DNA of 64,000 bases from Bacteroidota bacterium (lineage in GTDB: Bacteria > Bacteroidota > Bacteroidia > Bacteroidales > JAAUTT01), in contig JAUZOO010000018.1 of assembly GCA_030706405.1 (NCBI GenBank), positions 1 through 64,000 of the forward strand, read 5' to 3'. The stretch's first letter is position 1. The number at the start of each line of letters is the position of its first letter. The notes beneath the pieces were generated by a model, which saw only the letters and a program-made list of their open reading frames with translations, did no database searches and had not been told where the DNA came from. Position numbers and translations under genes: made by a program. Positions 7,155 to 20,067 of this stretch are shown one piece after another.

Positions 7155-8285
7155 TTAATATTTATGAGATTCGTTTTTTAATTCTTCCGAAGATATCTGT
7201 TTCTTATTGATAGCCTTCCATGCATAAAAAATATATGCCAGGACGAATGGCACTAACAATGAAACATAGCTCATAGCTGTGAGTGTGTAATGGCTGGACG
7301 AACTGTTTTCGATGGTTAGCGAACTCTGTAAATCGAACGTTGATGGATAAAAGGCGGTATTTTTAAATCCAGACAGGAAGAAGATCCCCATTACCGTTAA
7401 AATAGTACCAATCCCGGAAGCCCAGATCCCAGCTTTAGAAGACTTGAATAAGGTGATAAAAATGCCATATAACACCAACAGTACGCCAACCAGAAAAATA
7501 GCTGTTGTTAAAGGGCTGTTAATCATGTTGTGCAGGTATTTAAAATCTTCCATAAATACCTTTTTATTGATAACATCGTAGGCAAAACCTTTGGAGACTA
7601 GAAGTGCAACGACAAATGACAAAAAGAAAATCACGAAAACAGGAGCATTGTACCATAGCTGTTTTCGGGCCCTTTCGACAATAGGCGTATCTTTAATATT
7701 ATTAATGAAATAAAGCAGAGCCAAGGTTCGGGCAAGGAAGAATACTGTTAACCCAAGGGCGAGATTTTGAAGATTTAGTGCCGCTTCGAGTCCGTGATAC
7801 GGAGTTTCCCAGCGCGATTGGTTCATCTCGTTTACCGAAAATTGAGAGCCGGTGAAGAATGTTCCTACGGCAGTTCCAATCAGGATGGAGCCAAGCGCTC
7901 CGTTTATCAGCAGAAAAGCTTCGTACGTCTTATGTCCGAAAACATTATTGGGTTTCGAACGGTATTCGTACGCAATGGCTTGAATGATAAAACAAAATAA
8001 GATAAGCATCCAAACCCAGTAAGCACCTCCAAAGCTGGTGGAGTAAAACAACGGGAAAGAAGCGAAGAAAGCTCCGCCAAAGGTAACGAGCGTTGTAAAG
8101 GTGAATTCCCACTTACGACCCAGCGAGTTGATGATGACGGTTCGTTCGTCTTCGGTTTTGCCCAAGCTGTAAATGAGCGTTTGTCCGCCTTGTACGAACA
8201 TTAAGAAAACAAGAATGCCTCCGAGAAGTGAGATAATTACCCACCAGTATTGTTGAAGTGCGAGATGCGATAGTGTTTCAAACAT
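7155..8285 (-). CDS. cydB: Cytochrome bd ubiquinol oxidase subunit II
   Basis: This 376-residue, multi-helix membrane protein is the CydB subunit that pairs with CydA in the bd-type quinol oxidase. It begins 'MFETLSHLALQQYWWVIISLLGGILVFLMFVQGG' and has the family's 'GKTEDERTVIINSLGRKWEFTFTTLVTFGGAFFASFP' stretch. About eight or nine hydrophobic segments are visible. CydB binds no haem in known structures but is needed for assembly. It starts 2 nt after the cydA stop, so the two are co-translated, and a 36-codon membrane ORF follows at once. The oxidase gives high-affinity oxygen reduction using quinol without pumping protons. Confidence 0.96.
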   Translation of the reverse strand: MFETLSHLALQQYWWVIISLLGGILVFLMFVQGGQTLIYSLGKTEDERTVIINSLGRKWEFTFTTLVTFGGAFFASFPLFYSTSFGGAYWVWMLILFCFIIQAIAYEYRSKPNNVFGHKTYEAFLLINGALGSILIGTAVGTFFTGSQFSVNEMNQSRWETPYHGLEAALNLQNLALGLTVFFLARTLALLYFINNIKDTPIVERARKQLWYNAPVFVIFFLSFVVALLVSKGFAYDVINKKVFMEDFKYLHNMINSPLTTAIFLVGVLLVLYGIFITLFKSSKAGIWASGIGTILTVMGIFFLSGFKNTAFYPSTFDLQSSLTIENSSSSHYTLTAMSYVSLLVPFVLAYIFYAWKAINKKQISSEELKNESHKY

Positions 8286-8287
8286 GA

Positions 8288-9862
8288 TTAGTTTCCTCCT
8301 TCTTCTTTAGGTCCAATTTTTATTTGTTTGGTCATGATGGATACTTCGGCGATTGCCAATGCTGTAAATACAGCCGTAAACAGCCAGAAGGTGATTTGTA
8401 CCGCACTCGCATCGATTTGAGAAACTGCGGCTACTGCCGGTAAATAGTCCTGTATAACCCAAGGCTGCCGGCCTACTTCGGCAACTATCCATCCGGCCTG
8501 ACCGGCAATGTACGGTAACGGCAGGGTCAAAACGGCAAGCCATAGGAACTTTCGCTTTTGTTCGATATTCCCTTTGTACAGAAAATATAACACAAGGCCA
8601 AACAGAAGGATGAAGTAAAATCCGAGAAATACCATGATATGAAAGCTGTAAAAACTCATCGGTACGTTTGGTATCAGACTTTTGGGGTCGTTTAAAAATC
8701 CATAACCGAAGTATTGAAAATATTCAGACTTAAATTTGGCGTCGTCAAACTGAGCACGTAGTGTCTGGGCTACAGCCTCATCGCCTTTTTCTTTGGCTTC
8801 TTTATAAGCCTTAAGTACGTTGCGGGCTACTTTTCCTCGTTCTATTTTTTCGCTAGCTGGAAGAAGCGAATGATCTGCATTTCCGTAAACCAGATCATTG
8901 ATGCCGGGAACAAAAGCTTTCGGATCGAGGTATGCCAGGTACGAAAGGAGGTTCGGAACTTCCAGCTTCACTTTAATATCCGGCAGATAATTTTTAGAGG
9001 TGTCGGGCTGATTGGATACTACGCCGAAAGCCATCAGTGGCGCTCCGTGCGATCCGGTGTACAGACCTTCGAATGCTGCAAATTTCATGGGTTGTTTCTG
9101 AGCAATAAGCCGTGCCGAACTATCTCCCGTAAAAGCCGTAAATATCGAAGCTAAAAGTCCAAAAACTGCGGCAACCAACATGCTGCGCCGGGCAAAGAGG
9201 GTACTTCGTTTTTTTAATAAAAACCAAGCACTGATGCCGATTACAAAGATGGCGGCAAGGGTGAAACCCGATGTTATAGTATGTAAGAATTTATCGACAG
9301 CAAACGGAGAAAACAACACTTCCCAGAAATTAACCATTTCGTTGCGGGCTGTGTCGGGGTTAAAGTGCATTCCTACCGGGTTTTGCATCCAGGCATTGGC
9401 AACGAGTATCCATAAGGCCGAAAGGTTTGCACCAATAGCTACCAGCCAGGTAGAGGTAAGGTGAAATTTCGGGCTTACTTTATTCCATCCAAAAAACATG
9501 ACGGCAATGAAGGTCGATTCCATAAAAAAAGCCATGATTCCTTCGATGGCTAATGGAGCCCCAAAAATATCGCCCACAAACCATGAGTAGTTCGACCAGT
9601 TCGTTCCAAATTCGAATTCAAGAATGATACCGGTTGCTACTCCAATGGCGAAGTTAATTCCAAAAAGCGTCATCCAGAATTTGGTGATGCGTTTCCATTC
9701 CGGGTTGCCGGTTCTGACATAAATTGTCTCCATAAAGGCAACGATGAATGAAAGCCCCAACGTTAACGGGACAAAGAGCCAATGATACATAGCCGTAAGA
9801 GCGAATTGGGCCCTCGACCAGTTTACTAAGGAAAGATCAATGTTTGCAAGCATGTATAGCAA
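8288..9862 (-). CDS. cydA: Cytochrome bd ubiquinol oxidase subunit I
   Basis: At 524 residues this is the haem-bearing subunit. Expected ligands are visible: His in 'MYHWLFVPLTLG' (haem b595), Glu in 'IEGIMAFFMEST', His in 'DKFLHTITSG' (b558) and Met in 'NVPMSFYSFHIM' (b558). The quinol-binding loop shows 'QPMKFAAFEG', which keeps the conserved Lys and Glu of the GDxxxxxxAxxQPxKxAAxE motif. The late 'VAEVGRQPWVIQ' motif is also canonical. The Q loop looks intermediate rather than the long enteric type. It lies in a tight operon: the DUF4492 gene ends 2 nt upstream and cydB begins 2 nt downstream. Confidence 0.97.
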   Translation of the reverse strand: MLYMLANIDLSLVNWSRAQFALTAMYHWLFVPLTLGLSFIVAFMETIYVRTGNPEWKRITKFWMTLFGINFAIGVATGIILEFEFGTNWSNYSWFVGDIFGAPLAIEGIMAFFMESTFIAVMFFGWNKVSPKFHLTSTWLVAIGANLSALWILVANAWMQNPVGMHFNPDTARNEMVNFWEVLFSPFAVDKFLHTITSGFTLAAIFVIGISAWFLLKKRSTLFARRSMLVAAVFGLLASIFTAFTGDSSARLIAQKQPMKFAAFEGLYTGSHGAPLMAFGVVSNQPDTSKNYLPDIKVKLEVPNLLSYLAYLDPKAFVPGINDLVYGNADHSLLPASEKIERGKVARNVLKAYKEAKEKGDEAVAQTLRAQFDDAKFKSEYFQYFGYGFLNDPKSLIPNVPMSFYSFHIMVFLGFYFILLFGLVLYFLYKGNIEQKRKFLWLAVLTLPLPYIAGQAGWIVAEVGRQPWVIQDYLPAVAAVSQIDASAVQITFWLFTAVFTALAIAEVSIMTKQIKIGPKEEGGN

Positions 9863-11585: not shown

Positions 11586-11593
11586 TATATTTG
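11586..11593 (+). promoter_or_regulatory. Promoter -7 box of the Fe-S/NrfD/caa3 operon
   Basis: TATATTTG matches TAnnTTTG exactly, with a poor -33 region. Transcription would start near 11600, which rules out the upstream ORF start at 11581 and supports the ATG at 11623. Confidence 0.5.
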
Positions 11594-11622: not shown

Positions 11623-12564
11623 ATGGAGGACAAGGAAAAACCAAAGACTTCGCGCCGTAAATTTCTGGAAAACCTCGGATTGCTGGGTACGGGGGCTCTG
11701 GCAGCAAGTGCCGCAGTTTATTCGGGCTATCATTACGAACATTCCAAAAATAAGACAGGAAGGAAAATAAAAGTTCTTACGGCAGATAATCAATTGGCTG
11801 AAGTAGATGCCGGTTCGCTTACCATATCCGGTAAACCTACATTAACGGCATTGCAAATGCGTGGTCGCGAAGGAATTAAACATCGTCGATGGGTAATGAT
11901 TATAGATCTGTCGAAATGTAGGAATGCCCGCAAATGTATAGCAGCATGTCAGGAGGCTCATCATCTGCGTCCTGAACAGTACCATATTAATACGCTGCAA
12001 ATGCAGGAGTCGGAAAAGACGGCCCCGTTTTTTATGCCCAAACCTTGTCAGCATTGCGACAATCCTCCTTGTGTTTCGGTTTGCCCGGTCGATGCTACGT
12101 TTAAGCGCCCCGACGGACCCGTACTTATTGATAATGAACGTTGCATAGGTTGTCGGTTTTGCATCGCTGCCTGCCCCTATTCGGCACGATCGTTTAACTG
12201 GATTGAACCAAAATTTGCCAATCAGGACAAAGGTAAAACCTACGATGTTGAACTTAATGTTCCTCAAAAGAAAGGCACCATTACCAAATGCCTATTTAGC
12301 TCAGACCGTATTCGGGAAGGAAAATTGCCGTATTGTGTATCTGCTTGTCCAAATGGGGTTTATTATTTTGGAGATGAGAATGAAGATGCTGTAACTAATG
12401 GCACAACTAAAGAAACAGTGCGTCTCAGCAAACTTCTCCGCGATAATGGCGGCTATCGTCTCATGGAGGAGCTTGGAACCAAACCTCGGGTATATTATCT
12501 TCCTCCTAAAAATAGACTTTTCCCATTTCCAGAGGAAGGAAATATTATTGAGAAGGAAGGATAA
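11623..12564 (+). CDS. Tat-exported 4Fe-4S dicluster protein, electron-transfer subunit of an NrfD-type quinol oxidoreductase
   Basis: The start at 11623 (MEDKEKPK) places a twin-arginine signal, 'SRRKFLENLGLLG', at residues 10-22, followed by an Ala-rich hydrophobic stretch. The mature part resembles HybA/DmsB/ActB-type subunits with four Cys motifs. Motif I is CRNARKCIAACQ, where the usual second Cys is Ala. Motif II is CQHCDNPPCVSVCP and motif III CIGCRFCIAACP, both complete. Motif IV is KCLFSSDRIREGKLPYCVSACP-like, where the usual second Cys is Ser. The next gene encodes the NrfD partner, and a cytochrome c and caa3 oxidase follow in the same operon. It probably carries electrons from quinol at the NrfD subunit to cytochrome c on the periplasmic side. 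The enzyme class is inferred from context. Confidence 0.85.
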   Translation: MEDKEKPKTSRRKFLENLGLLGTGALAASAAVYSGYHYEHSKNKTGRKIKVLTADNQLAEVDAGSLTISGKPTLTALQMRGREGIKHRRWVMIIDLSKCRNARKCIAACQEAHHLRPEQYHINTLQMQESEKTAPFFMPKPCQHCDNPPCVSVCPVDATFKRPDGPVLIDNERCIGCRFCIAACPYSARSFNWIEPKFANQDKGKTYDVELNVPQKKGTITKCLFSSDRIREGKLPYCVSACPNGVYYFGDENEDAVTNGTTKETVRLSKLLRDNGGYRLMEELGTKPRVYYLPPKNRLFPFPEEGNIIEKEG

Positions 12565-12652
12565 GAAATTTCGAAATAGCTTTATCTCTATACATACGCC
12601 AAATGATGGCGGGTGTTTTAACGAATAAACCGGATAAATTCCATCATAAATT

Positions 12653-13960
12653 ATGGAACCAATCAATCTTTCCGAAAAAATAACCACCGATATTCTTCGT
12701 CCGGTAGGTATTACTAAAAGCTTTAAAATCTGGATGACTGCTTTGCTTGTAGCGTTTGGCATTTGTATTTATGCTTATACGTTACAGTTAAGGAATGGAT
12801 TAGGAGTTACCGGCCTTCGTGATTATATTTCGTGGGGAATGTACATTGCCAATTTTGTATTTTTTGTGGCCTCGAGCCTTATCGGGATGCTTATCAGCGC
12901 GGTATTAGGATTGTCGGGGGCGAAATGGATTACACCTATTGCCCGAATCGCTGAAATTATCGCTTTGGCCTTTGCTTCTGTGGCCGGACTGGTTATTATT
13001 TCGGACATGGGTAGGCCGGAGCGGCTTCCGAACGTTTTTATCTACGGACGAATTCAGTCGCCTATTCTTTGGGATGTTACCGTAGTTACTACTTATGTTG
13101 TAATCAGTGCGTTGCTTTTGTATCTCCCATTAATCCCCGACTTGGCTATTTGTAGTCGTAGGATGGACACTCCCCCGTGGTTAAGAAAAATATACAGACT
13201 GATGTCGTTGGGGTGGTCCGGCACGCCAGAGCAAACGGCGATGATTCAAAAGTGCACCCGGATATTATTAATATTAATTGTTCCTGTGGCTTTGGCTATT
13301 CACACTGTAACATCGTGGCTGTTTGCCGCAACGCCCAGAGCCGGATGGAACAGTTCTGTATTCGGGCCTTATTTTGTGAGCGGGGCTTTTGTGGCTGGTG
13401 CAGCTGCCGTTATTATTGCTATGTATTTTTTTCGAAGGAATTATAAACTTCACGATTATATCACCGACAGTCATTTTGATAAAATGGGGAAGTTGCTGGT
13501 GCTGGTTTCTTTGGTTTATCTGTACTTCAACATAAATGAGTTTTTGGTACCCGGGTATAAACTTGAAAAGGCCGAAGCCAAGTATTTGCATGAAATATTT
13601 GCGGGTAGGTACGCTGTCTTATTCTGGAGTGCCCAGCTTTTGGGGGTAATTATTCCTATCATATTATTATTGATTAAATCCGTGCGGAAACCTTTGCCAA
13701 TGATGATTATCGCGGCATTTGTTCTGGCGGCCTCCTGGATTAAACGGTTATTAATCGTTGTCCCTACCCAGGAACATCCGTTTCTCCCAATTCAGTACGT
13801 ACCTCAGAATTTTAAATTTTATACACCAACTCTTACTGAAACCCTGATAACTCTGGCTTCGATTATTTTGGTATTGATTATTGTGACAATACTTTCTAAA
13901 TTTTTTCCGGTAATTCCTATTGAGGAGACTATTAATGAATTAAAACACGGAGATAAATAA
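12653..13960 (+). CDS. NrfD/polysulfide reductase-type integral membrane quinol subunit
   Basis: This 435-residue protein has about ten hydrophobic segments. The segment 'LRDYISWGMYIANFVFFVASSLIGMLISAVLGL' and the 'IISDMGRPERLPNVF' loop are typical of the NrfD/PsrC/HybB family, which binds menaquinol and passes electrons to a periplasmic Fe-S subunit. The gene lies between the Tat Fe-S protein and a membrane-anchored cytochrome c, and stops 4 nt before the cytochrome gene. Together the three resemble a reduced form of alternative complex III (ActB/ActC plus one cytochrome). It could instead serve another oxidoreductase, but no catalytic molybdopterin subunit is present in the window. Confidence 0.88.
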   Translation: MEPINLSEKITTDILRPVGITKSFKIWMTALLVAFGICIYAYTLQLRNGLGVTGLRDYISWGMYIANFVFFVASSLIGMLISAVLGLSGAKWITPIARIAEIIALAFASVAGLVIISDMGRPERLPNVFIYGRIQSPILWDVTVVTTYVVISALLLYLPLIPDLAICSRRMDTPPWLRKIYRLMSLGWSGTPEQTAMIQKCTRILLILIVPVALAIHTVTSWLFAATPRAGWNSSVFGPYFVSGAFVAGAAAVIIAMYFFRRNYKLHDYITDSHFDKMGKLLVLVSLVYLYFNINEFLVPGYKLEKAEAKYLHEIFAGRYAVLFWSAQLLGVIIPIILLLIKSVRKPLPMMIIAAFVLAASWIKRLLIVVPTQEHPFLPIQYVPQNFKFYTPTLTETLITLASIILVLIIVTILSKFFPVIPIEETINELKHGDK

Positions 13961-13964
13961 TGTC

Positions 13965-14843
13965 ATGAAGAAATACGGCTTATTAATATTACTTCTGATT
14001 ATAGTTGTCCGGTTAAATGCCCAATCTTGGGAAGTTCCTGATGATAAAAAGGCGAAGGTTAGTCCTGTTCAGTTTTCATCTGAGACTGCTAAAAAAGGAG
14101 AAGTTATCTTTTTACGGAACTGTCAGAGTTGTCATGGCAATCCAACTAAAGGAAACTTTGCCAACCTGATACCATCGCCCGGAGACCCTGCTACCGATAA
14201 ATTTCAAAAGCAAACCGACGGAGCCTTATTTTATAAGATTACTACCGGACGAAGTCCCATGCCCCAGTTTAAGGACGTTTTAACAGAAGAGGAACGCTGG
14301 CAGGTGATTTCATATTTCCGCAGCTTTAATAAAAATTATGTTCAACCGCCCGTAGCATCTGCCAGTAAAGTTGCAGCCAAACAAGCCGCCCTGACCGTTG
14401 TATGGGAGGCTGCTTCCCGAAAACTTAAGGTAACAGCATCAGATACCTTAAAAAGATCGCTTAAAGGAGTTGGCGTTTTACTATTTGTGAAACGATACTT
14501 TGGGAATATGCAGATTGGCGAAGAAATGACTACCAACGACAGTGGCATTGTCCGATTTGACTTTCCAAAAGATATTCCGGGCGACAAAACGGGAAATCTC
14601 GACCTGATTATAAGGATTAACAGTGAAAAAGGGGATGACGTTCAAAAGACAGTCCGCCTTCCGCTTGGCGTTATTGTAGATAAGCCGCCGCTTACTCTGC
14701 CGCGAGCCATGTGGAACGTGGTATGGAAAAGCCCGGTATGGCTTTTATTGGCTTATTTTTTGGTTGTAATTGGAGTGTGGAGCTTTCTAATTTATATTAT
14801 TTATCAGTTGGTTAAAATGAAAAGAAGAGCAGGTAACGTTTAA
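13965..14843 (+). CDS. Membrane-anchored monohaem cytochrome c
   Basis: The 292-residue product opens with a Sec signal (MKKYGLLILLLIIVVRLNAQ). A class I cytochrome c domain follows, with haem-binding CQSCH near residue 50 and a probable Met ligand in 'GRSPMPQF'. The middle ~120 residues look beta-rich and unlike cytochrome, and the C-terminus has a membrane helix (VWLLLAYFLVVIGVWSFLIYIIYQL) with a basic cytoplasmic tail. The beta-rich extension is unusual and may be a docking domain. Position between the NrfD gene and Sco/caa3 genes suggests it links quinol oxidation to the oxidase. Confidence 0.85.
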   Translation: MKKYGLLILLLIIVVRLNAQSWEVPDDKKAKVSPVQFSSETAKKGEVIFLRNCQSCHGNPTKGNFANLIPSPGDPATDKFQKQTDGALFYKITTGRSPMPQFKDVLTEEERWQVISYFRSFNKNYVQPPVASASKVAAKQAALTVVWEAASRKLKVTASDTLKRSLKGVGVLLFVKRYFGNMQIGEEMTTNDSGIVRFDFPKDIPGDKTGNLDLIIRINSEKGDDVQKTVRLPLGVIVDKPPLTLPRAMWNVVWKSPVWLLLAYFLVVIGVWSFLIYIIYQLVKMKRRAGNV

Positions 14844-14856
14844 TAACATAACGATT

Positions 14857-15636
14857 ATGAATAGATTGTATTCAGTTTTGATGTTTTTGTTTTTTGTTGC
14901 AGTTTCTTTTGGACAAACACCGGTACAGCAGGGCGATGACGTAGAAGTTGGTATTGTTGAACATCTGGGCGATACGATTCCTCTTGATTTGAAGTTTAGC
15001 AACGAGAAAGATCAGTTGGTTTCGCTTCGGAGTTTGGTTAACAAGCCTACGGTACTTTCGTTTGTGTATTTTGATTGCCCCGGTTTGTGTAGTCCGCTGC
15101 TCAATGGAATCTCGTCGGTAATTGAAAAAAGCGATATGCAGCTTGGAAAGGATTATCAGGTTATTACCGTTAGTTTTAATTTCAGGGATAACCCTGAAAA
15201 AGGGCGTCAAAAAAAGGAAAAGTTTTTGCAAACGCACAGTAAAAGTCATGCGGCATCGTGGATATACCTTACCGGCGACAGTACTTCAATCTATAAATTG
15301 TCCAATGCGGTTGGGTTTAAATTTAAACGTGCCGGAGTAGATTTTATTCATCCCGCGGCCATTATGGTGCTTAGCCCTTCAGGTAAGATAACTCGCTATT
15401 TATACGGATTAACTTTTTTGCCGTTTGACTTGAAAATGGCTGTAGTTGAGGCGCGCAAAGGTTTAGCCCGGCCTACCATTAATAAAGTGCTTGAGTTCTG
15501 TTTTGCGTACGACCCTGCCGGAAAACGCTATGCTCTTGAGGTTACCAAAATCTCAGGTGTCATAATTTTATTTATACTTATATTGTTTGGATTGGGGCTA
15601 TTAGTAAAAGCCAAAAAACGCAAGGCTCGCTCTTAA
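14857..15636 (+). CDS. Sco1/SenC copper chaperone for the oxidase CuA centre
   Basis: The 259-residue protein has an N-terminal signal, a thioredoxin-like fold and the copper ligands: Cys pair in 'FDCPGLCSPLLNG' (CxxxC) and the distant His in 'DFIHPAAIMVLSP'. Sco proteins load or reduce the CuA site of cytochrome oxidase subunit II. A C-terminal hydrophobic helix (GVIILFILILFGLGLLV) and basic tail add a second membrane anchor, a common arrangement in Bacteroidota. It stands directly before the caa3 oxidase genes, which fits the role. Confidence 0.92.
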   Translation: MNRLYSVLMFLFFVAVSFGQTPVQQGDDVEVGIVEHLGDTIPLDLKFSNEKDQLVSLRSLVNKPTVLSFVYFDCPGLCSPLLNGISSVIEKSDMQLGKDYQVITVSFNFRDNPEKGRQKKEKFLQTHSKSHAASWIYLTGDSTSIYKLSNAVGFKFKRAGVDFIHPAAIMVLSPSGKITRYLYGLTFLPFDLKMAVVEARKGLARPTINKVLEFCFAYDPAGKRYALEVTKISGVIILFILILFGLGLLVKAKKRKARS

Positions 15637-15687
15637 TTCAATTTACCAGGTCATTAAAATTTTAACATATCTGTAAAAATATAAATA

Positions 15688-17298
15688 ATGCCGGAACCAA
15701 ATGTAAATAATAAACAACCGAGCTATCTCGAATTTCAAGGACGATTTAAGGGCCTTGCCGGATGGATTTTTTCGACCGACCATAAACGGATTGGCCTGCT
15801 TTATCTGTATGCTATCATGACGTTTTTTTTGGTTGGAGCTATTCTGGGTGTTCTTATGCGTATCGAGCTTATAAGTCCCGGCGAAACCATTATGAAGGCA
15901 CAAACCTACAACGGGGTTTTCACGCTTCATGGGATTATCATGATATTCTTAGTGGTAATTCCCGGACTGGCTGCTGTTTTTGGAAATTTTTTTCTTCCCA
16001 TTATGATAGGTGCTAAAGACGTAGCTTTTCCGCGTCTTAATCTGTTATCGTGGTGGATTTATTTTTTTGGAGCTGTTTTGGCGGTTATGTCTCAATTTGT
16101 TGGAAATGGCCCACCCGATACCGGCTGGACTTTTTATGCTCCATATAGTACCCAAACCGGAACTAACGTTGTGGCAGCGGTTACAGCAGCTTTTGTGCTG
16201 GGTTTCTCATCCATCCTTACCGGTATAAATTTTATTGTTACAATACATAGAATGCGGGCTCCCGGGATGACTTGGTTTCGGATGCCATTGTTTCCCTGGT
16301 CCCTATATGCTACTGCTTGGATTCAGGTGCTGGCAACCCCTATCATCGGAATAACCTTGTTGATGGTGGTGGCTGAGCGGGTATTACGGATTGGGTTTTT
16401 CGACCCGTCATTGGGCGGCGATCCTATTCTTTACCAACATTTGTTCTGGATTTATTCGCACCCGGCAGTTTATATCATGATTCTTCCTGCCATGGGTGTA
16501 ATTACAGAGATTATACCAACTTTTTGTCGACAAAAAGTGTATGGTTATAAGGCAATTGCTTTATCGAGCCTTGCAATTGCTGGAGTTGGCTATCTGGTTT
16601 GGGGGCATCATATGTTTACTTCGGGCATGAGTGTTACTGCCCGGTGGATATTTTCGTTGCTTACTTTTATTGTTGCTGTGCCTAGTGCAATTAAAGTTTT
16701 TAACTGGATTGCTACCATGTATAAGGGCTCTATCGACCTTCAGCCTCCGTTTCTTTTTGCCCTTGCCTTTATCTTTCTTTTTATGATTGGAGGTATGACT
16801 GGATTGCTTTTGGGTTCATTGGCCGTTAATGTTCAGGTTCACGACACCTCGTTTGTTGTGGCGCATTTTCATTATATTATATTCGGAGGAATGGGCTTTG
16901 CCTTTTTTGCTGGCATTCATTATTGGTTTCCAAAAATGTATGGGCGGATGTTCAATATTAAACTGGCCAATATCGGGATTGCGATACTTTTTGTTGGATT
17001 TAATGTGCTGTATTTTCCGCTTTTTGTGATTGGAGTACAGGGGATGCCCCGTCGTTACTACGATTATCTGCCGCAGTTTCATACTGGTCATTTTATATCA
17101 ACAATTGGGTCGTTTATTCTTGCAATCGGCTTGATTGTGATGCTCTATAATCTTTTTTATTCGGCACGTAAAGGTGCAATTGCTCCTGCAAATCCGTGGG
17201 GAAGTCAATCGCTCGAATGGACTATACCTTCGCCGCCTCCGGTTGAGAATTTCGAAGAAATACCGGTGATTACAGAAGATCCGTACAATTATAAATGA
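15688..17298 (+). CDS. ctaD: Cytochrome c oxidase subunit I (A2-type haem-copper oxidase)
   Basis: This 536-residue, twelve-helix protein contains the low-spin haem and the haem-CuB centre. Visible landmarks are 'FTLHGIIMIFLVVIP' (haem His), 'YSHPAVYIMILP' (CuB His and the cross-linked Tyr), 'GHHMFTSGM' (two CuB His) and 'VHDTSFVVAHFHYIIFGG' (haem ligands). The usual D-channel Glu of 'HPEVY' is missing and the preceding residues are Tyr-Ser. This YS arrangement defines the A2 type known from caa3 oxidases such as that of Rhodothermus. The gene precedes subunits III, IV and II. Whether haem A or O is inserted depends on a heme A synthase, which is not in the window. Confidence 0.96.
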   Translation: MPEPNVNNKQPSYLEFQGRFKGLAGWIFSTDHKRIGLLYLYAIMTFFLVGAILGVLMRIELISPGETIMKAQTYNGVFTLHGIIMIFLVVIPGLAAVFGNFFLPIMIGAKDVAFPRLNLLSWWIYFFGAVLAVMSQFVGNGPPDTGWTFYAPYSTQTGTNVVAAVTAAFVLGFSSILTGINFIVTIHRMRAPGMTWFRMPLFPWSLYATAWIQVLATPIIGITLLMVVAERVLRIGFFDPSLGGDPILYQHLFWIYSHPAVYIMILPAMGVITEIIPTFCRQKVYGYKAIALSSLAIAGVGYLVWGHHMFTSGMSVTARWIFSLLTFIVAVPSAIKVFNWIATMYKGSIDLQPPFLFALAFIFLFMIGGMTGLLLGSLAVNVQVHDTSFVVAHFHYIIFGGMGFAFFAGIHYWFPKMYGRMFNIKLANIGIAILFVGFNVLYFPLFVIGVQGMPRRYYDYLPQFHTGHFISTIGSFILAIGLIVMLYNLFYSARKGAIAPANPWGSQSLEWTIPSPPPVENFEEIPVITEDPYNYK

Positions 17299-17325
17299 TT
17301 GAAAATTGAATATTAAATCTGCTTT

Positions 17326-17943
17326 GTGATGGAAAGTGTAGTTACCCATGCGGAACATCGTGACGACTTTGGGGCAAAGCTGGGAATGTGGATTTTTATC
17401 TTCACCGAATTGTTGCTTTTTGGAGGATTGTTCCTAGTATATGCTGTTTATCGGCGGCTTTATCCGGCCGATTTTCACGATGCAGCCCTCGAACTGAATG
17501 CTTTTTTAGGAACTCTCAATACCGTTGCTCTCCTGATTAGCAGTATGACGGTGGCCATGTCGCTTACAGCCGTTCAGAAAGGAAATCAAAAACTGGCTGC
17601 CAGGCTCATCCTGGTAACTATACTGATGGGCGTGTTTTTTCTTTTTAACAAGTACCATGAGTGGGGAACTGAGATTCGCGATGGGCTTTATCCTGGCTCC
17701 GAAAACCTGATGGGACAGGCTCACGGGGTGACATTATTTTTTGGTCTGTATTTTTTTATGACAGGGTTACACATGCTTCATATGTTGGTAGGCATGATCT
17801 TGTTGATCGTCACTTGGGTAAAGATAAAAAGCGGAGCGATTAACTCCGAGCGTTATGTCTTGCTCGAAAATGGTTCGTTATACTGGTGTCTGGTCGATTT
17901 AATATGGATTTTTCTTTTTCCTCTGCTTTATCTGATACCTTAA
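17326..17943 (+). CDS. ctaE: Cytochrome c oxidase subunit III
   Basis: The 205-residue protein has five or so membrane helices and begins with the soluble 'VTHAEHRDDFGAKLGMWIFIFTELLLFGGLF' segment typical of short, caa3/bo3-type subunit III. The 'QAHGVTLFFGLYFFMTGLHMLHMLVGM' region holds the conserved Glu/His-rich helix. It stabilises the proton-pumping core and does not bind metals. It lies 27 nt after subunit I. Confidence 0.93.
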   Translation: MMESVVTHAEHRDDFGAKLGMWIFIFTELLLFGGLFLVYAVYRRLYPADFHDAALELNAFLGTLNTVALLISSMTVAMSLTAVQKGNQKLAARLILVTILMGVFFLFNKYHEWGTEIRDGLYPGSENLMGQAHGVTLFFGLYFFMTGLHMLHMLVGMILLIVTWVKIKSGAINSERYVLLENGSLYWCLVDLIWIFLFPLLYLIP

Positions 17944-17968
17944 AATGATTTTAATAAACAAATAGTAA

Positions 17969-18259
17969 TTGCTTATGGAATCCGAAAAACATCATATTAC
18001 AAGTTACAGGACTTATGTCCTAGTGCTGATAGTGCTGTTGTTACTGGTGTCGATTTCTGTTGGGGTAACACATATGGGGTTAAAAACGTGGACTGTGGGT
18101 GTGGCATTACTTATTATGTGTGCCATGGCCTCCATTATCCTGATTTATTTTATGCACTTGAAGTTCGACCATATTCTGCTTAAAGTATTGGTGGTTGGAG
18201 TGTTTTTGTTGTTTGCCACGTTCATAGGGATTACGCTGCTCGAATATTTGACCCGATAG
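17969..18259 (+). CDS. Cytochrome c oxidase subunit IV (prokaryotic, CtaF-like)
   Basis: The 96-residue product has three hydrophobic helices and opens MLMESEKHHITSY, where MESEK two codons in is an equally good start. The 'MIMCAMASIILIYFMHLKFD'-type middle helix is characteristic of bacterial COX4. The protein helps CuB loading and assembly in known oxidases. Its position between subunits III and II supports the call. Confidence 0.88.
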   Translation: MLMESEKHHITSYRTYVLVLIVLLLLVSISVGVTHMGLKTWTVGVALLIMCAMASIILIYFMHLKFDHILLKVLVVGVFLLFATFIGITLLEYLTR

Positions 18260-18289
18260 TTTTATCGGATAATTATACCGGAATTAAAA

Positions 18290-19216
18290 TTGAACATTAT
18301 GTTTACCGAAGCTTCTAATTTTGTTGAAGGTGTTGACTTTGCGTTTAAGTTCATTTTCGGCATCGCTATGTTTTTTTTGGTAGGGCTTACAACGGTTATG
18401 ATCGTTTTTATAATTAAATACAATCGGAAGAAACATCCGAATGCCGTACAAATTCCGAGTAATAACACCCTCGAAATTACCTGGACAGCAATTCCTTTAG
18501 CCCTTGTTTTGCTAATGTTTTATTATGGATATGTGGCTTTTATGCCAATGCGTAATCCGCCTAAAGATGCGATGATTGTTAAAACTACGGGTCGTATGTG
18601 GGCATGGGACTTTGAATATGCCAACGGTAAGCACTCTCAGGAACTGGTAGTTCCGTTAAAAAAGCCGGTTCGTCTGAATATGACATCCAAAGATGTAGTG
18701 CATAGCCTGTATATTCCTTCCTTTAGGGTGAAAGAAGACGTAGTTCCCGGTAGACAAACAGTTTTGTGGTTTATCGCGGAGGAAGAAGGCACTTATGAGA
18801 TATTCTGTACGGCATATTGCGGGTTAGGGCATTCGGGGATGGGTTCAGTGGTCAAAGTTGTGTCTCAGAAAGCGTTTGATAAGTGGTTCGCTGAAATTCC
18901 AAAGCCAGCGGCAGGCGCTGCCCAGGGGCTCGAAATTATTAAACGAAATGCGTGTACTTCCTGTCATTCGGTGGACGGGTCAAAGCTAATCGGACCATCA
19001 TTTAAAGGACTATATAATTCAAAGCATGTTGTTATTAGTAATGGGAAAGAACATGAGATAACTGCTGATTCTGCATATGTGCGAACGTCTGTTCTCGAAC
19101 CGGATAAAGACGTGGTTAAAGGCTTCAATAAGGGGCTGATGAGAAGTTATAAAGGCACAGTTAGTGAGACCGATATAAAAAATATTATCGAATATTTTAA
19201 GAGTATAAGCAGATAA
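18290..19216 (+). CDS. ctaC: Cytochrome c oxidase subunit II fused to cytochrome c (caa3 type)
   Basis: The 308-residue protein has two N-terminal membrane helices and a periplasmic cupredoxin domain. The CuA ligands are visible: His in 'DVVHSLYIPSF', then 'CTAYCGLGHSGM' with both Cys, His and Met. A C-terminal cytochrome c domain (from about residue 205) has CTSCH and a probable Met ligand in 'GLMRSYKG'. The fusion makes this a caa3 oxidase that can accept electrons through its own haem c. It is placed last of the four structural subunits rather than first, which is unusual. The start at 18290 follows an earlier ORF choice; MFTEAS three codons later is possible. Confidence 0.95.
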   Translation: MNIMFTEASNFVEGVDFAFKFIFGIAMFFLVGLTTVMIVFIIKYNRKKHPNAVQIPSNNTLEITWTAIPLALVLLMFYYGYVAFMPMRNPPKDAMIVKTTGRMWAWDFEYANGKHSQELVVPLKKPVRLNMTSKDVVHSLYIPSFRVKEDVVPGRQTVLWFIAEEEGTYEIFCTAYCGLGHSGMGSVVKVVSQKAFDKWFAEIPKPAAGAAQGLEIIKRNACTSCHSVDGSKLIGPSFKGLYNSKHVVISNGKEHEITADSAYVRTSVLEPDKDVVKGFNKGLMRSYKGTVSETDIKNIIEYFKSISR

Positions 19217-19221
19217 TATTT

Positions 19222-20067
19222 ATGACAAACGTCCGGATATTTTTACGGTTAACCCGGTTTCCTCTTTCGCTGGCTATATCTTTTTCGGCTTTGGTGGGAG
19301 CCATGCTTGGCTGTGGGACGTTTAATCATACATGTGCTTCAACGTTTATGGGAGTGTGGTTACTTTCCGGGGCAGCTTCAGCCTTTAACCAATATCAGGA
19401 AAGAGAGGCGGATGCCCTTATGGAACGGACTAAAAACAGACCTCTGCCATCTAGACAAATACCACCGGTTACTGTCGTTCGCATAGCGTTGATTTTGGGA
19501 TTTTTGGGAACCGCATTGCTCTTTAGTTGTGCAACGCCATTAGCTTCAGCACTGGCTGTCTTTAACCTTTTATGGTATAATCTGGTATATACCCCTTTAA
19601 AGAAACGATCGTCGCTGGCATTGCTTGCCGGAGCCTTAACCGGAGCATTGCCTCCGATGATAGGTTGGTCTGCAACTGGTGGAAACTCGTTTAGTCCGAC
19701 TATTTTGTTGATAGCTTTATTCATGTATCTGTGGCAAATACCTCATTTTTGGCTTTTGCTGAAAACCTATGGGAAGGAATACGAAAAAGCCGGCTTCTGT
19801 ACATTACATTGGCCGGCTGATAGTTTTTTCGGGAAATATATCCTTTTAATATGGATGACCAGTACTTCTGTTTGTTCTTTGTTTTTTCCTCTTTTCGGAA
19901 TTGTTACAAATATCTATCTGATTGTTTTTTTGTTAATTATAAATGTTTGGCTGATATATAGTTTTGTAAGCATTATTTTTTTGCATCAGCCGGTTTTAAA
20001 AATGCCCCGAATATATTTTTATCAGGCAGTAGTTCTGTTAATCCTGCTGGCGGATCTTATTTTTTAA
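19222..20067 (+). CDS. ctaB: Protoheme IX farnesyltransferase (heme O synthase)
   Basis: The 281-residue UbiA-family membrane enzyme adds a farnesyl group to haem b to make haem O, the precursor of haem A. The first allylic diphosphate motif reads [19 protein letters not shown], where the first Asp of the usual NxxxDxxxD is Glu. About eight hydrophobic helices follow. Being last in the oxidase operon matches its job. The 3' end overlaps the convergent chemoreceptor gene by 11 bp. Confidence 0.93.

Follow-up and report, generated by a model that had tools for sequence, protein, structure and literature searches.

The alternative complex III (ACIII) is a large enzyme of unsettled mechanism, both as to the subunits that menaquinol oxidation requires and as to whether and where protons are pumped. 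In Flavobacterium johnsoniae it is the sole electron source for the aa3 oxidase, and in Rhodothermus marinus its subunit ActE has been proposed as the direct donor to caa3 (PMC8552683). Cytochrome oxidase (COX) operons to which a complete ACIII cluster is joined have been described (PMC4013037), and these are the nearest published arrangement that we found to the one reported here. The present locus lies in a 64,000-nucleotide stretch of DNA (the window; positions 1 to 64,000 of contig JAUZOO010000018.1, assembly GCA_030706405.1) from a Bacteroidota bacterium, where a caa3 oxidase operon is headed by three genes, hereafter the module, encoding a Tat-exported iron-sulfur (Fe-S) protein, an NrfD-family membrane protein and a membrane-anchored cytochrome c. 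From results that were all computed from sequence, we consider it highly likely that the products of these genes form a pared-down menaquinol:cytochrome c oxidoreductase in place of ACIII or the bc1 complex. The set very probably takes the place of the usual complex III in many Bacteroidales, passing menaquinol electrons to the oxidase encoded by the adjacent genes. By composition the module is not an ACIII: ActA, ActB1, ActD and ActF are absent.

The module opens a single run of nine plus-strand genes that spans 11623-20067 in the window and continues through Sco, CoxI, CoxIII, CoxIV and CoxII to CtaB, the haem O synthase (Table 1). The gap 5' of the NrfD gene is 88 bp, and those from its 3' end onwards are 4-51 bp. 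The three genes lie where an earlier note on this DNA had placed them, at the head of an operon that goes on to Sco, caa3 subunits and haem O synthase.

No other quinol:cytochrome c reductase was recognised in the source genome, which is 4.93 Mb in size and 99.7% complete, and whose named relatives are Bacteroidales. The NrfD family (PF03916) has a single genome-wide match, the operon copy, and hence there is no second NrfD protein (ActF). Nor does the genome contain a match to cytochrome b of bc1 or b6f (PF00033), ActD (PF11821), the molybdopterin oxidoreductases (PF00384), NapC/NrfH (PF03264) or the ActA of an ACIII relative. The family searches recovered their families in control genomes, and three ACIII relatives gave a positive result in the ActA search. 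This leaves the module as the sole recognisable link between quinol and cytochrome c. A bc1 complex or a NapC/NrfH-type quinol dehydrogenase elsewhere in the genome is ruled out by the lack of PF00033 and PF03264 matches, and an ACIII scattered through the genome by the lack of ActA, ActD and a second NrfD. Thus, the absence of a pentahaem ActA, ActF and a molybdopterin subunit, which the earlier note had read from the locus, holds genome-wide.

The distribution of the module was examined in 119 genomes, the source genome and its relatives, mostly of the same order, with ActD as the marker of ACIII and with counts tabulated from tool outputs. A caa3-type CoxI occurs in 23 of them, 14 with ActD and 9 without. 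The module is present in all nine caa3 genomes without ActD and in 3 of the 14 with it, and no caa3 genome lacks both (Fisher p = 3.4e-4; this and the following p-values ignore shared ancestry, and some of the genomes are fragmented metagenome-assembled genomes (MAGs)). The ActA search found nothing in any of the nine, and found ActA in the three ACIII controls. When caa3 and cbb3 oxidases are taken together, 34 genomes carry one or the other, 17 with the module only, 12 with ACIII only, 4 with both and 1 with neither (p = 4.5e-5); the module occurs in 21 of these 34 genomes versus 5 of the 85 others (p = 2.6e-10). Furthermore, in several ACIII genomes (G044, G106, G097, G052) the act genes share a contig with CoxI, about 4 to 12 kb apart, so ACIII and the module hold comparable positions.

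These data also bear on whether the module might belong to an ordinary ACIII, with the remaining subunits encoded elsewhere in the genome or too divergent for detection. That the NrfD protein belongs with ActC and the cytochrome domain with ActE (see below) would be in keeping with this explanation. However, neither the family searches nor the ActA search found ActA, ActD or ActF in the genome, and ActA and ActD are likewise absent from the other eight ACIII-less caa3 genomes, although the same searches succeed in ACIII relatives. In addition, four oxidase-bearing relatives have both systems, complete and separate. We regard a hidden ACIII as largely refuted and very improbable.

The gene order is shared as widely as the genes. 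A scan of named genomes returned more than 500 related loci, and in the 80 whose neighbourhoods were examined the module is followed by caa3 genes in 56, by genes for a CcoI-like ATPase and a cbb3 oxidase in 10, by a contig edge in 8 and by neither oxidase in 6. Because the order of module and caa3 genes recurs in 56 of 80 named loci, it is not a chance arrangement. Cultured carriers include Marinilabilia rubra (caa3-linked) and Marinifilum and Ancylomarina (both cbb3-linked). The earlier note had called the three-gene set unusual, and this did not hold, the set being widespread in Bacteroidales. Its pairing with caa3 stands for the present locus and for most of those examined, but has to be widened to include cbb3. 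That note had named two results as fatal to its proposal of an oxidase-feeding enzyme, namely a full Act or bc1 operon elsewhere together with a tree that assigns the subunits to a different enzyme class, and a lack of co-occurrence with caa3 genes in relatives; we obtained neither, and co-occurrence with the two oxidases is strong.

The NrfD protein is of the ActC type. A sequence search against solved structures scored it at 150 to 170 bits with four ActC chains but at only 13 bits with ActF, and the tree joins it to ActC, a long way from the DsrP of Chlorobia (100/99). An AlphaFold2 model (mean pLDDT 84.3, pTM 0.88) matched four ActC chains in Foldseek with TM scores of 0.90-0.91, ActF with 0.57-0.62 and PsrC with 0.39; the input alignment of this model included two ActC rows, and ActC structures were possibly in the AlphaFold2 training data. 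We took the positions of the quinone-site residues in R. marinus ActC and Escherichia coli HybB from PMC8076601. Ser164, Asp169 and Arg395 of ActC correspond to Ser136, Asp141 and Arg365 of the module protein, which are conserved in 27/27, 27/27 and 26/26 family sequences, respectively. HybB Asp109 and Ser129 align as published, in support of the alignment. Judged from its conserved residues, the NrfD subunit has a quinone site, which departs from that of ACIII at other positions (see below). For QrcD, recent work has lent no support to the conserved arginine acting as a gate (PMC13059093), and Arg365 is therefore no guide to proton pumping.

To describe the Fe-S protein, the related loci need to be divided. 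By score and neighbourhood they fall into clade I, that of the module, and clade II, which in the NrfD tree is not a single group. The twin-arginine motif is present in 103 of 104 Fe-S family proteins, and motifs II and III keep all their cysteines. In clade I the second cysteine of motif I is Ala in 90/92 proteins and that of motif IV is Ser in 92/92. ACIII has the reverse pattern, with Thr or Ser for one cysteine of motif III (five sequences) and motifs I and IV complete; the ACIII-type [3Fe-4S] signature, Thr or Ser for the second cysteine of motif III, is not found in the module protein. The motif I loss was considered as a unique mark of the module family and rejected, since DsrO-like flavobacterial proteins share it; between clade I and clade II only the motif IV serine discriminates. 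In the tree, the module Fe-S family stands apart from both ActB and DsrO (100/99). In this protein family the clusters of motifs II and III lie nearest the membrane and those of motifs I and IV nearest the catalytic subunit. It is plausible that the membrane-near half has been retained for quinol oxidation and that the outer half has changed, having no catalytic subunit to serve.

The cytochrome consists of a signal, a haem domain like those of ActE and cytochrome c552, an Ig-like domain and a C-terminal transmembrane (TM) helix. Its haem-site residues C53, C56, H57 and M99, with CxxCH at residues 53-57, are invariant in 50/50 cytochromes. An AlphaFold2 model (mean pLDDT 88.5) matched cytochrome c552 first, followed by the ActE subunits from three ACIII structures, and its Ig-like part resembles macroglobulin domains. 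The earlier note had recognised counterparts of the Fe-S part of ActB, of ActC and of a monohaem cytochrome. The ActC assignment is sustained and the Fe-S protein turns out to be a family of its own with altered cysteine motifs, while the monohaem membrane cytochrome is confirmed, with the refinement that its ActE-like haem domain is joined to an Ig-like domain and a TM anchor.

These features suggest a route for the electrons. The quinone, presumably menaquinone as is usual in Bacteroidota, would be oxidised as menaquinol at a periplasmic-side site of the NrfD subunit formed by Ser136, Asp141 and Asp118. Electrons would then pass to the Fe-S protein, through the clusters of motifs II and III, and from there to the haem c of the third protein, which its TM helix and Ig-like domain would keep at the membrane. 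The tethered haem c may in turn reduce the haem c of CoxII in caa3, or CcoO/CcoP in cbb3, either directly or via a small soluble cytochrome. We infer the activity, its direction, the cofactor types, complex formation and the electron path from the sequence. The earlier proposal of a minimal menaquinol:cytochrome c oxidoreductase feeding caa3 thus finds support of an indirect kind, in that the module is the sole candidate, its NrfD groups with ActC and it co-occurs with the oxidase. Going further, the chances seem to us about even that it represents a separate, widespread class of complex III in Bacteroidales, made of an Fe-S/NrfD pair and one tethered haem c, lacking the multihaem wire, ActB1, ActD and the second NrfD, and with a proton-coupling arrangement at the quinone site unlike that of ACIII.

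Several observations weigh against a menaquinol:cytochrome c oxidoreductase. First, ActC His139 is replaced in the module by Asp118 (27/27), the residue type of HybB, QrcD and DsrP, and ActC Asp253 by Leu223; the chemistry may therefore differ from that of ACIII. Second, motifs I and IV of the Fe-S protein are each without one cysteine. Third, among 26 relatives that carry a clade I NrfD, five (G020, G026, G040, G062, G073) are without a detected gene for either oxidase, so other acceptors are possible. Fourth, the relatives are mostly MAGs, and genomes that share ancestry do not count as independent samples.

The Asp118 of the first point would suit a reversed reaction, in which electrons from cytochrome c reduce menaquinone as in QrcABCD of sulfate reducers, a system that has the same kind of Fe-S/NrfD dimer together with a cytochrome (PMC6303296). 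In that case, however, the oxidase would have no known electron source. The operons shared with terminal oxidases and the either/or pattern with ACIII imply that cytochrome c is reduced, and the His/Met ligands of the haem (M99 in 50/50) are typical of higher-potential c-type haems, not of the tetrahaem c3 type. We thus think a reversed module improbable. The third point bears on whether the module, like Qrc, Dsr or Cbc, donates to a different acceptor and adjoins oxidase genes owing to shared regulation by oxygen or redox state. The five genomes without a detected oxidase, the 6 of 80 loci with none nearby and the clade II relatives, which adjoin multihaem cytochrome and beta-barrel genes instead, speak for such a role, but it leaves unexplained both the presence of the module in 9/9 ACIII-less caa3 genomes and the direct adjacency to two types of oxidase. 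To our minds this, too, has little chance of being right.

The order of genes after the module raises the question of whether its products might serve in assembling the oxidase or in maintaining its redox state, for instance by reducing copper or haem for oxidase biogenesis alongside Sco and CtaB, both of which follow it. The cytochrome and Sco are fused in one MAG, and in two related MAGs NrfD and the cytochrome form a single open reading frame (ORF); such fusions could still stem from assembly error, but those of NrfD belong to two separate assemblies. We count the fusions in favour of the oxidoreductase as well. Known assembly factors need no conserved quinone site, Fe-S chain or haem, 11 of the 14 ACIII caa3 genomes manage without the module, and the oxidase would again be left without an electron donor. 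An assembly role is hardly credible. As a further observation on this region, many relatives (L039:10485-10865 and about half of the 80 loci) have a gene for a small DoxX-like membrane protein, some 126 aa long, between those for the cytochrome and Sco; the window has no such gene at that place.

Table 1. Coordinates of the module, of the genes and promoter candidate in its run, and of fusion ORFs in relatives
Feature	Position	Strand	Remarks
Possible Bacteroidota-type -7 promoter element TATATTTG (TAnnTTTG)	11586..11593	+	30 bp 5' of first ATG
Tat-exported Fe-S protein (~313 aa), four cysteine motifs	11623..12564	+	ATG start; Tat motif SRRKFL
NrfD/ActC-like 10-TM quinol-binding membrane subunit (predicted), 435 aa	12653..13960	+	PF03916, 131.6 bits; 10 hydrophobic helices
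Membrane-anchored monohaem cytochrome c	13965..14843	+	Signal, one CxxCH, Ig-like domain, C-terminal TM helix
Sco copper chaperone	14857..15636	+	PF02630
CoxI, caa3 oxidase subunit I	15688..17298	+	TIGR02891 above cut-off
CoxIII	17326..17943	+	PF00510
CoxIV, caa3 type	17969..18259	+	TIGR02229 above cut-off
CoxII with CuA domain and C-terminal haem c domain (caa3)	18290..19216	+	TIGR02866, PF00034
CtaB, haem O synthase	19222..20067	+	
Fusion ORFs of related MAGs	L098:454-2739; L112:2519-4804; L134:9321-10997		

The promoter call at 11586 is weak, with 88 matches to TAnnTTTG observed in the window versus 72.9 expected by chance, and the promoter and terminator scans of the window gave counts near chance. 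Genes for cytochrome bd (CydA and a CydB-like ORF) lie at 7155-9862 on the minus strand, just upstream of the caa3 operon, and the respiratory chain is therefore branched. Cytochrome bd draws electrons straight from quinol; the caa3 oxidase, which is complete here, requires reduced cytochrome c. Elsewhere in the same genome (C12, L202:4470-6715), a divergent haem-copper oxidase subunit I of 539 aa (PF00115) has a CoxII-like partner without the CuA cysteines and adjoins rubrerythrin-like and rubredoxin-like genes. It is possibly of the nitric oxide reductase type, and similar proteins occur in G062, G011, G028, G100, G018 and G026.

Other relatives of the module differ in their surroundings. 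Most clade II loci (L058-L062, L064-L066) adjoin genes for a DUF5777 beta-barrel, a cytochrome with 7 haems, a cytochrome b561 and a regulator of the Crp type; such a set could be an outer-membrane or other electron conduit. Most clade II NrfD proteins have Cys at the position of the quinone-site Asp, and in clade II relatives the parts of the cytochrome are split over two genes, one for a haemless Ig-like/TM protein and one for a monohaem cytochrome. At L199 and L201, an ActC-like NrfD and a short Fe-S protein accompany a separate protein of 719-818 aa, which looks like an ACIII with a split ActB. The NrfD proteins of L195, L196 and L197, from genomes of the class that lie outside Chlorobia, pass the NCBIfam DsrP cut-off, and this name may be over-applied to them.

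Were the proposed function correct, a natural three-protein stand-in for ACIII across whole lineages would define a minimal catalytic core, and comparison with the module would allow the roles of ActA, ActB1, ActD and ActF to be tested. The annotation of aerobic respiration in Bacteroidales would gain too, since a gap would be closed in genomes that seem to possess a caa3 or cbb3 oxidase without any complex III. A full-text literature search found no description of the module; earlier mention in reviews is possible.

Compared with the ACIII of F. johnsoniae and R. marinus, the module shares the place beside an aa3/caa3 oxidase and, by our reading, the role of quinol:cytochrome c reductase. Its NrfD is of the ActC type by tree and fold and appears to retain the quinol site on the P side, its Fe-S protein has a counterpart in the Fe-S portion at the C-terminus of ActB, and its cytochrome domain folds like ActE. 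It differs in lacking ActA, ActD, ActF and the ActB1 half; for the molybdopterin-enzyme-like half of ActB, the 313 aa Fe-S protein has no large neighbour and the genome no PF00384 match. Moreover, motif III is intact where ActB has Thr, motifs I and IV are each one cysteine short, Asp and Leu stand for His139 and Asp253, and the cytochrome is fused to an Ig-like domain and a TM helix, unlike the lipoprotein of ACIII.

With DsrOP, the module shares a separate Tat-exported Fe-S protein, a 10-TM NrfD protein and the Asp at the quinone-site position, and of the named models NCBIfam DsrO scores highest on the Fe-S protein. Membership suggested by that score was rejected, because the tree groups NrfD with ActC and both scores are below cut-off (DsrO, 189.5 versus 200 bits; DsrP on the NrfD protein, 129.6 versus 350). 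The gate residue is Arg, where DsrP has Lys, and the operon contains no DsrM, DsrK or DsrJ, its neighbours being oxidase genes. Scores for QrcC (126 bits versus a cut-off of 400) and QrcD (61.5 versus 570) place the module outside Qrc as well. Nevertheless, like Qrc, NrfCD, HybAB and PsrBC, it has a quinone-reactive dimer of an Fe-S protein and a cofactor-less NrfD that would exchange electrons with a periplasmic partner (PMC6303296). Here, in contrast, that partner is a membrane-tethered cytochrome with one haem, whose gene accompanies those of a terminal oxidase, and there is no QrcB/QrcA, hydrogenase or molybdenum enzyme. Cbc4 of Geobacter (CbcSTU) likewise combines genes for a cytochrome, an Fe-S protein and an NrfD protein without a molybdopterin subunit; its cytochrome is multihaem, and it is not known to be linked to a caa3 oxidase. 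As in the NrfCD type, an NrfD-family protein is encoded with a multi-cluster Fe-S protein, the pair recurs in relatives, and the pocket residues Ser136 and Asp118 are conserved in 27/27 sequences. The module is therefore best described as a new form of NrfCD-type quinol dehydrogenase that is sister to the ACIII core.

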